Source of the DNA: Brachybacterium sp. P6-10-X1
GTDB taxonomy: Bacteria > Actinomycetota > Actinomycetes > Actinomycetales > Dermabacteraceae
NCBI RefSeq assembly: GCF_001969445.1
Contig: NZ_CP017297.1
Coordinates: forward strand, 2,480,001-2,544,000
Length of the DNA: 64,000 nucleotides
Reading direction: 5' to 3'
This document shows positions 37,772-39,580 of this stretch, piece after piece (within the stretch, counting starts at the first letter, position 1; each line of letters begins with the position of its first letter). A program made the translations under genes and the position numbers. Below the pieces are notes generated by a model. The model had not been told where the DNA came from, made no database searches, and saw only the letters and a list, made by a program, of their open reading frames with translations.

Positions 37772-37856
37772 GGAGGATTCGCCTAGCGGCCTATGGCGCA
37801 CGCCTGGAACGCGTGTTGGGTTCACGCCCTCGGGGGTTCGAATCCCCCATCCTCCG
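37772..37856 (+). tRNA. tRNA-Ser (GGA anticodon)
   Basis: 85 nt. The acceptor stem GGAGGAT pairs with ATCCTCC, discriminator G; the T arm is GGGGG-TTCGAAT-CCCCC; the anticodon arm CACGC-CTGGAAC-GCGTG gives anticodon GGA. The long variable arm (TTGGGTTCACGCCCTC region) is the class II serine type. CCA is not encoded. A terminator follows 10 bp later. Confidence 0.95.
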
Positions 37857-37866
37857 CCGAAAAAAT

Positions 37867-37909: not shown

Positions 37910-38962
37910 TCAGAACAGAGCGGGCTGCGGGACCAGGTCGAGAGCCGCCGGGGCGGACCGCGCCCCGACTGCCCTGCCGGCGGCCGCACGCCGCTGCTCG
38001 GGCTGATCCTCGTCTTCGTGGGCGGCCAGGCCGTGCCGTTGCAGCAACGGCCGCAACCGCCGGGACAGGTTCTTGCGATAGCTCGCCGGCGCATAGGACT
38101 CCCGACCGTAGAAACGGCCATAGCCGGTCGCGAGCTCGGGATGCTCCCGCGAGATCCACTCGAGGAACCACTCCTTCGCCCCGGGCCGCAGATGCAGGGC
38201 GCCGTGGACGACACGTGAGGCGCCGGCCTCGGCGATCCGGGCGAGGGCGTCGTCGAGCTGGGCGTCGGAGTCCGTCAGCCAGGGCATGATCGGCATGAGG
38301 AAGACCGTCACGCGGAATCCGGCATCGGCCGCGGCCCGGACGGTCGCCAGGCGGGCGGCGGTGGTCGGGGTGCCGGGTTCGACGGCTCTCTGCAGCTCGT
38401 CGTCGAACACGGCGATGGACATCGAGAGGTCCACCGGAACCCGTTCCGCGGCCTTCTCCAGCAGCGGGAGGTCACGTCGCAGCAGGGTGCCCTTGGTGAG
38501 GATCGAGATCGGCGTGCCGCTGTCGGCGAGGGCGGAGATGATCCCGGGCATCAGGCCGTAGCGCCCTTCGGCGCGCTGATAGGGATCGGTGTTGGTGCCG
38601 AGCGCGACGAGGTCACGATTCCAGGAGCGCTTCGCGAGCTCGGCGCGCAGCACCTCGGCGACATTGACCTTCACGATGACCTGCTGGTCGAAGTCGGCGC
38701 CTGCGTCGAGATCCAGGTACTTGTGCGTGCTGCGCGCGAAACAGTAGACGCAGGCGTGGGAGCACCCTCGATAGGGATTCACGCTCCACTCGAACGGCAT
38801 CGAGCTCGAGGCCGGCACGCGATTCAACGCCGACTTCGCCGTCACCTCGTGGAAGGTGACGCCCTGGAACTCCGGCGTGCGCACGCTGCGCACGAGCCCG
38901 GACATACCCAGCAGAGCCTGCTCGCGCTGCCCCGCTCCGACCGTCTGCCCGCTCCAACGCAT
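37910..38962 (-). CDS. Rv2578c family radical SAM protein (SOS-controlled)
   Basis: 350 residues. It begins MRWSGQTV, like the MRW start of mycobacterial Rv2578c. The iron-sulfur motif is RGCSHACVYCFAR (CX3CX2C, near residues 64-72). TNTDPYQRAEGRYGLM and SILTKGTLLRRDL are typical of the SplB-like/Rv2578c branch. The reaction is unknown; relatedness to spore photoproduct lyase suggests nucleic-acid repair or modification. The start is confirmed by the promoter: the -10 lies 6 bp before the ATG and a perfect LexA box overlaps it. The open frame upstream of 38962 is antisense to other genes. Confidence 0.9.
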   Translation of the reverse strand: MRWSGQTVGAGQREQALLGMSGLVRSVRTPEFQGVTFHEVTAKSALNRVPASSSMPFEWSVNPYRGCSHACVYCFARSTHKYLDLDAGADFDQQVIVKVNVAEVLRAELAKRSWNRDLVALGTNTDPYQRAEGRYGLMPGIISALADSGTPISILTKGTLLRRDLPLLEKAAERVPVDLSMSIAVFDDELQRAVEPGTPTTAARLATVRAAADAGFRVTVFLMPIMPWLTDSDAQLDDALARIAEAGASRVVHGALHLRPGAKEWFLEWISREHPELATGYGRFYGRESYAPASYRKNLSRRLRPLLQRHGLAAHEDEDQPEQRRAAAGRAVGARSAPAALDLVPQPALF

Positions 38963-38968
38963 GCCTGT

Positions 38969-38997
38969 ATTCGAACGTACGTTCGACACTATGTCAA
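38969..38997 (-). promoter_or_regulatory. promoter overlapped by LexA (SOS) box; leaderless start
   Basis: Reading the minus strand: TTGACA (38997-38992), 17 bp, TCGAAT (38974-38969), 6 bp, then the ATG of the radical SAM gene. The spacer and -10 contain TCGAACGTACGTTCGA (38971-38986), an exact match to the actinobacterial SOS box TCGAAC-N4-GTTCGA. LexA bound here would block RNA polymerase, and the geometry predicts that the mRNA starts at the A of ATG. Confidence 0.85.
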
Positions 38998-39064: not shown

Positions 39065-39580
39065 ATGATGACCTCTGCCGATCCCTCGTCCCCCTCGGAC
39101 CCTGAGTCCCGGCCCCGTCCGCTCTACACCGCCCGCGTCGACAACTCCCGGGGCACCTCCGGGCAGGTGCGCGCCCACGAGGGCCCCGCCTCGCTGGACG
39201 TCGGACAGCGGCGCGATGGTGCCGCTGCCGAGCCGGAGGTCGTCCTGCCCACCGGGAGCCCGTCGTCCCCGGCACAGGGCTTCAATCCCGAGCAGTTCCT
39301 GGCCATGGCCTGGAGCACCTGTCTCGGCGAGACGCTGCGCGTGGTCCTGTCCGAGCGGGGTCTGGCGCACGAGAGCCGGGTCAGCGTCGAGGTCGAGATG
39401 CACCGCGATCCGGTCGGCGGTTTCCGGTTCACACCGCGCGCCGTGGTCTCGGTCGAGGAGATGGCACCGGAGGAGGTTCGCGAACTGGCCGAGGCCGCGC
39501 ACGCCCGGTGCCCGGTCTCCAAGATCCTGACCGGCCAGGGAGCGTCGGACGTCGAGCTGGTGGTGGCCCCACGCGGCTGA
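39065..39580 (+). CDS. OsmC/Ohr family peroxiredoxin-like protein
   Basis: 171 residues. The two redox cysteines of the family are in MAWSTCLGETLRVVL and HARCPVSKIL, and VEVEMHRDPVGGFRFTPRAVV is the middle sheet region. The first 25 residues are a Ser/Pro-rich lead not normally present. Ohr-type proteins reduce organic hydroperoxides using lipoyl or other thiol donors. It is divergent from the SOS-regulated radical SAM gene with 102 bp between starts. Confidence 0.88.
   Translation: MMTSADPSSPSDPESRPRPLYTARVDNSRGTSGQVRAHEGPASLDVGQRRDGAAAEPEVVLPTGSPSSPAQGFNPEQFLAMAWSTCLGETLRVVLSERGLAHESRVSVEVEMHRDPVGGFRFTPRAVVSVEEMAPEEVRELAEAAHARCPVSKILTGQGASDVELVVAPRG

Follow-up and report, generated by a model that had tools for sequence, protein, structure and literature searches.

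Organization of the locus

The window, the whole 64-kb stretch of DNA analysed here, carries on its minus strand a gene for a 350-residue radical SAM protein of the Rv2578c family (P0001; 37910–38962), which is preceded by a predicted LexA operator, or SOS box. P0001 matches the Pfam Radical_SAM model and scores 515.3 bits over residues 1–312 on the curated NF038135 model, well above its cut-off of 430, so that the Rv2578c-type assignment given in an earlier note on this DNA stands; the cluster motif CX3CX2C occupies residues 67–74. A divergent OsmC/Ohr-like gene is located at 39065–39580 on the plus strand, and a tRNA-Ser (GGA) gene (37772–37858, plus strand) is convergent with the radical SAM gene, the end of which is approximately 50 bp away. 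PADLOC returned no defence-system match at E ≤ 0.01, and a defence-system reading of the locus was dropped on that account.

Read along the minus strand, the region at 38960–38997 consists of TTGACA (38997–38992), TAGTG, the box TCGAACGTACGTTCGA (38986–38971), AT, ACAGGC and ATG (38962–38960). The predicted operator (38971–38986) is a perfect palindrome with a conserved offset in relatives. TTGACA (38992–38997, minus strand) constitutes the −35 element, with its first base 11 nt 5' of the box and with TTGAC conserved, and the proposed −10 element TCGAAT (38969–38974, minus strand) is made up of the end of the box and the AT that follows it, leaving a spacer of 17 nt. Six nucleotides separate TCGAAT from the ATG (38960–38962, minus strand), which is the predicted transcription start of a leaderless mRNA, and the MRW N-terminus encoded from there is shared in the family alignment A1. 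The earlier note had described a perfect TCGAAC-GTAC-GTTCGA overlapping the spacer and the −10 element, in an arrangement TTGACA-17-TCGAAT-6-ATG, and the letters on the minus strand agree with it in both the palindrome and the spacings. A strict sigma-70 scan, in which A is required at position 2 of the −10 element, finds no promoter at 38960–38997 because TCGAAT has C at this position; the promoter claim thus rests on the cross-species comparison described below and not on that scan.

SOS sites elsewhere in the genome

The 0-mismatch box is a single site in a scan of the window, and perfect TCGAAC-N4-GTTCGA sites occur only twice in the whole 4.39 Mb genome, where the backwards-read box pattern has zero sites. 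The second perfect box precedes an imuA' gene (NF058630), imuA' being an SOS mutagenesis gene. Two sites are found upstream of this gene, 62 bp apart (G000:C1:753335–753350 and 753397–753412), one of them the perfect box and the other with two mismatches. The genome also encodes LexA (TIGR00498, 246.9 bits, cut-off 110.95), and the stretch of about 320 bp upstream of the part of lexA matched by the model contains two 11/12 and two 10/12 sites. One or more of them fall within a divergent LysM open reading frame beside lexA, for which the best NCBIfam match is YneA, with a score under the YneA cut-off.

Conservation of the operator

A profile of 19 family members (alignment A1) was used to retrieve relatives, and the best 80 of at least 592 confirmed stretches were kept as named loci, a set that is biased toward relatives of P0001 and whose members are mutually related and non-independent. 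All 80 have an in-frame MRW start, and 79 have a box of at least 9/12 that begins 25 to 23 nt ahead of the start codon and is perfect in 25 of the 80. The exception is a Tsukamurella locus (L167), where the box has altered spacing. A box at that position is seen in 3 of 1600 dinucleotide shuffles of the named loci, and before 4 of 537 other open reading frames (not proven genes) in the same loci.

For a view across the phylum, 396 genomes were drawn, of which 181 match the family model and 53 do so above its cut-off. Upstream regions were scored for 117 loci with matches down to 266 bits, leaving out second matches per genome as well as G340, G154 and G275, which score above 266 bits and have the N-terminal part missing. 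The exact core GAAC-N4-GTTC is present in 101 of the 117 regions and absent from the other 16, compared with 1 of 2340 shuffles, and a site of at least 9/12 is present in 115; L079 and L212 are the two loci where no 9/12 site is found. The two surveys overlap, since at least three of the draw loci lie on contigs of the same length as those of named ones (L042/L160, L053/L152 and L062/L095). The orthologue survey, which the earlier note had set as a refuting test, hence finds the box kept (79/80 named loci and 115/117 loci of the draw).

These counts also bear on whether the palindrome could be accidental. Sites with up to three mismatches are indeed expected by chance in a window of 64 kb, and four are observed against 2.06 in shuffles; however, the box is perfect, there are two such boxes in the genome, and its position is fixed in relatives. 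The genome count together with the two surveys rules out a chance palindrome, the probability of which we regard as negligible.

Within the window's own genus, the gene is present in 13 of 38 genomes (including the one studied here), and every one of the 13 has a perfect box. The gene thus seems to be often lost or gained despite its very conserved control.

Twelve more distant relatives from the phylum (160–244 bits), chosen out of a longer list, do not contain the exact core; the best site among them is 10/12, in one locus. Eleven of the 12 pass the cut-off of the PA0069 family, and one family supplies ten of the 12 comparison genomes, so the absence of the box may reflect the lineage and not the gene. 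PA0069 belongs to the P. aeruginosa LexA regulon, and a 2002 LexA list for M. tuberculosis reportedly includes Rv2578c; our literature search found no paper that joins either Rv2578c or PA0069 with LexA.

Assignment of the operator to the radical SAM gene

The start of the OsmC gene at 39065 is 78 bp from the box in the window, and the box could accordingly be thought to serve this divergent gene, or both genes. However, a tblastn search of flanks of 1.5–2.5 kb identified an OsmC relative in only four of 122 loci, one being the window's own and another a piece of 42 residues only, whereas nearly every locus retains the box ahead of the radical SAM gene. Furthermore, the geometry of −35 element, −10 element and start is directed at the radical SAM gene and not at OsmC. 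The rarity of OsmC at these loci argues that the box belongs with the radical SAM gene and rules out OsmC as its main target, and we consider a role of the box for the OsmC gene, sole or shared, highly improbable. In the few species that share the arrangement, the divergent OsmC gene could feel LexA.

Promoter geometry and predicted leaderless transcription

In an alignment of the promoters of 79 named loci (L167 excluded), TTGAC is the most strongly conserved stretch ahead of the box. The information content of TTGAC, 11–7 nt before the box, is 0.7–1.7 bits, that of the six bases between TTGAC and the box 0–0.2 bits, and that of the box up to 2.0 bits, while the region farther upstream is flat. 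Two bases past the box, T is present in 76 of the 79 promoters (1.73 bits), whereas the mirror position on the left carries 0.15 bits. This asymmetry goes beyond the symmetry expected from LexA, and fits a −10 element composed of the end of the box and the next two bases. The −10-like hexamers among the 80 named loci are mainly TCGAAT (39), TCGACT (20) and TCTAAT (9), and the distance from hexamer to start is 6 nt in 55 loci, 7 nt in 22 and 5 nt in three, a measure that holds the same information as the box offset. The start codon is ATG in 71 and GTG in nine of these loci, and a Shine-Dalgarno sequence is found in none of the 80.

The relation between box position and Shine-Dalgarno sequence could be followed over a wider range in the combined genus and phylum set, in which 47 of 130 loci were dropped for want of a recognisable MRW start and 83 kept. 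A Shine-Dalgarno sequence is absent from all 45 loci with the box at −27 to −22 and from all 16 with the box at −18 to −13, where it touches or overlaps the start codon, and present in 16 of the 17 with the box at −60 to −44. The far-box group comes mostly from one genus with genomes of 6–11 Mb, probably Streptomyces. The remaining five loci have the box at other positions, and four of them have a Shine-Dalgarno sequence.

Boxes that abut or overlap the start are seen at L083–L090, L203, L205–L207, L210, L216 and L217, for example GCGAACATGTGTTCGTG with a GTG start. At these loci, bound LexA would sit over the very beginning of the mRNA.

Taken as sequence, the arrangement of TTGAC, 17–18 nt, a right half-site reused as −10 element, and ATG or GTG without a Shine-Dalgarno sequence suggests a leaderless mRNA. 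The prediction in the earlier note that transcription starts at the ATG gains support from the lack of Shine-Dalgarno sequences and from the promoter-to-start spacing in the named loci. A precedent is the lexA gene of M. tuberculosis, reported in a passage of PMC2897130 as leaderless; it too is an SOS gene with a transcript that starts at the start codon, but it is a different gene, and its start was determined experimentally. The fixed geometry also firms up the assignment of the start codon in many genomes.

Comparison with spore photoproduct lyase

The earlier note had described the enzyme as related to photoproduct lyases, and this applies to its predicted fold. Among solved structures, spore photoproduct lyase comes out first in a profile search of the PDB, where it is weakly found (E 0.0074); P0001 alone, searched against PDB sequences, gives nothing at E ≤ 1. 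The structural model of P0001 has a mean pLDDT of 73.9 and is poor at residues 66–89. With this model, weak as it is at those residues, ranks 1–6 in Foldseek are all spore photoproduct lyase (TMq 0.45–0.53). VIA-align places the lyase first with a Z score of 15.9 (rmsd 3.6–4.9 over 255–268 residues for the top two), compared with 13.8 for lipoyl synthase as the next family and 13–14 for other radical SAM folds. The model thus points to a fold similar to that of spore photoproduct lyase.

The residues that define the lyase are, on the other hand, not generally conserved. Counts were made over P0001 and the 80 named proteins (81 rows, with gaps for L158, which has only 58 residues). The only universal cysteines are the cluster ligands C67, C71 and C74, and a fourth universal cysteine is absent. 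An additional cysteine occurs at position 218 in 52 of the 81 rows and at position 42 in 27, with P0001 having neither. Position 127 is cysteine in six of the 19 sequences in A1, mostly those from the probable Streptomyces group, and in none of the 81 rows of the named alignment, P0001 included; it lies inside the segment GTNTDPYQ, where every named row with letters there has proline. By our reading, as opposed to a tested alignment, the counterpart of this segment in the lyase is the CTSD segment. An hhalign comparison of A1 with Bacillus SplB has partial coverage and a probability of 32 and is seemingly misplaced near the catalytic segment, and the argument from the cysteines is independent of it. 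The residue following the last cluster cysteine is phenylalanine in 76 of the 81 rows, among them P0001, tyrosine in four and a gap in one.

For the lyase itself, C141 is the probable hydrogen donor, and its loss gives UV-sensitive spores; the Y99F exchange lowers the rate about sevenfold, and the Y97F/Y99F variant is nearly inactive (as given in the part of PMC3742179 consulted). Without the fourth cysteine, and with phenylalanine in place of the relay tyrosine, P0001 probably differs from the lyase in chemistry or substrate. The clade-specific cysteines at 127 and 218 might replace the fourth cysteine of the lyase in part of the family.

These data can be set against the proposal that the enzyme is a true lyase of the spore-photoproduct type, engaged in thymine photoproduct repair in non-sporulating actinobacteria. 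The consistent ranking of the lyase as best solved match by profile, Foldseek and VIA-align speaks in its favour, as do the additional cysteines at 127 and 218 in some members. However, the matches listed for P0001 at E ≤ 0.001 do not include TIGR04070, the spore photoproduct lyase model (cut-off 400), on which a Bacillus SplB scores 516.9; P0001 has neither extra cysteine; the relay tyrosine is phenylalanine in 76 of 80 family sequences; and the lyase itself requires C141 and is slowed by Y99F according to the same part of PMC3742179. Membership of P0001 in the SPL family is ruled out by the TIGR04070 score and the residues, and we judge a true lyase of this type unlikely. The Rv2578c family resembles spore photoproduct lyase, its closest solved structure, in the CX3CX2C radical SAM motif; it differs in having no universal fourth cysteine and mostly phenylalanine for the relay tyrosine. 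The absence of a universal fourth cysteine speaks against applying the name spore photoproduct lyase to this family.

Several family members from the phylum draw (among them L038, G206, G412 and G267) match the 317-position model over about 1.8–2.0 kb, which fits the presence of inteins. P0001 aligns with an intein-containing model through residues 74–312, with profile positions from 335, and the intein site therefore appears to be at the FeS motif.

Discussion

The radical SAM gene of the window has a perfect SOS box in a fixed geometry, and this arrangement is conserved throughout the phylum. The link of the gene to DNA damage is well supported, and the tie between an Rv2578c-type gene and the DNA damage response that the earlier note had drawn is strengthened by the box being kept before orthologues. 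We consider it very probable that this is an SOS gene with a LexA-repressed leaderless promoter and a product that repairs a DNA lesion. In this mechanism, LexA would occupy an operator overlapping the spacer and providing the larger part of the −10 element, and the bound dimer would exclude RNA polymerase. DNA damage would lead to RecA filaments and self-cleavage of LexA, upon which the promoter would open. Transcription would begin at the ATG and yield a leaderless mRNA that is translated without a Shine-Dalgarno sequence. The product would be a radical SAM enzyme most likely performing radical repair of a DNA lesion, with a chemistry or substrate unlike that of spore photoproduct lyase.

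An SOS-regulated gene could also encode an enzyme that targets RNA, protein or a small molecule under damage stress. No substrate of the Rv2578c family is known to us, and the radical SAM superfamily is diverse, with lipoyl synthase, NifB and RlmN next in the fold list. In addition, the LexA regulon of S. venezuelae includes metabolic targets according to the passages seen of PMC9380542. Against this, the nearest solved fold is that of a DNA repair enzyme, SplB-like genes of other phyla are under SOS control with other LexA motifs (excerpts of PMC3323433 and PMC8565304), and there are operons that combine SplB-like genes with repair genes (excerpt of PMC3765255). A target other than DNA is thus conceivable, yet clearly less probable than the repair of a DNA lesion. 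With respect to phenotype, inactivation of an Rv2578c-family gene in S. ambofaciens had no clear cost, and the link to repair is called speculative in the pertinent passage of PMC12924846.

As far as the excerpts of these sources go, SOS control is known in kind, for SplB-like genes of other phyla, for S. venezuelae and probably for M. tuberculosis. SplB-like genes (COG1533 splB) of alpha- and beta-Proteobacteria are SOS-controlled (PMC3323433), as are those of Bacteroidetes, for which the authors cite further species (PMC8565304). These systems are similar in having LexA sites upstream of an SplB-like radical SAM gene, but they use other LexA motifs, and the excerpts describe no fixed leaderless geometry; the gene studied here belongs to the actinobacterial Rv2578c subfamily.

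An actinobacterial example is vnz_31145 of S. venezuelae, described as an SplB-like radical SAM gene, which is a LexA ChIP-seq target and is induced 19.97-fold by mitomycin C in RNA-seq (excerpt of PMC9380542); it resembles the present gene by its description and is a candidate member of NF038135. The box reported for it at −61 in that excerpt is unlike the family box in the probable Streptomyces genomes in sequence. A search for the vnz_31145 14-mer at 32–60 nt before ATGCG gave matches in only seven of 392 genomes of one genus (probably Streptomyces), and among these seven, five are nearly identical and by eye resemble coding sequence, so vnz_31145 was not identified by that search. Mitomycin C induces, via RecA, a 'DNA repair photolyase' of M. 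tuberculosis that belongs to a gene set in which SOS boxes were found (passage of PMC8151990), which resembles the control proposed here. By our inference this is probably the Rv2578c gene itself; the passage contains no locus tag.

To what is known, the present analysis adds the phylum-wide footprint, the fixed geometry, the fusion of the operator with the −10 element and the start codon, and evidence against plain lyase chemistry. A fixed leaderless SOS geometry of the Rv2578c family was not found described in our literature search, which covered few subscription papers.

More tentatively, and with somewhat less than even confidence, we propose that in Actinomycetota the Rv2578c family represents an ancestral enzyme of SOS repair, which acts by radical chemistry on a DNA lesion other than the spore photoproduct and which stayed under LexA phylum-wide with its operator fused to the −10 element. 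If this is true, repression, melting and leaderless initiation would share a single element of 40 bp, which in one group would even include the start codon. An operator with a fixed position throughout the phylum makes the question of which DNA lesion the enzyme repairs directly testable.
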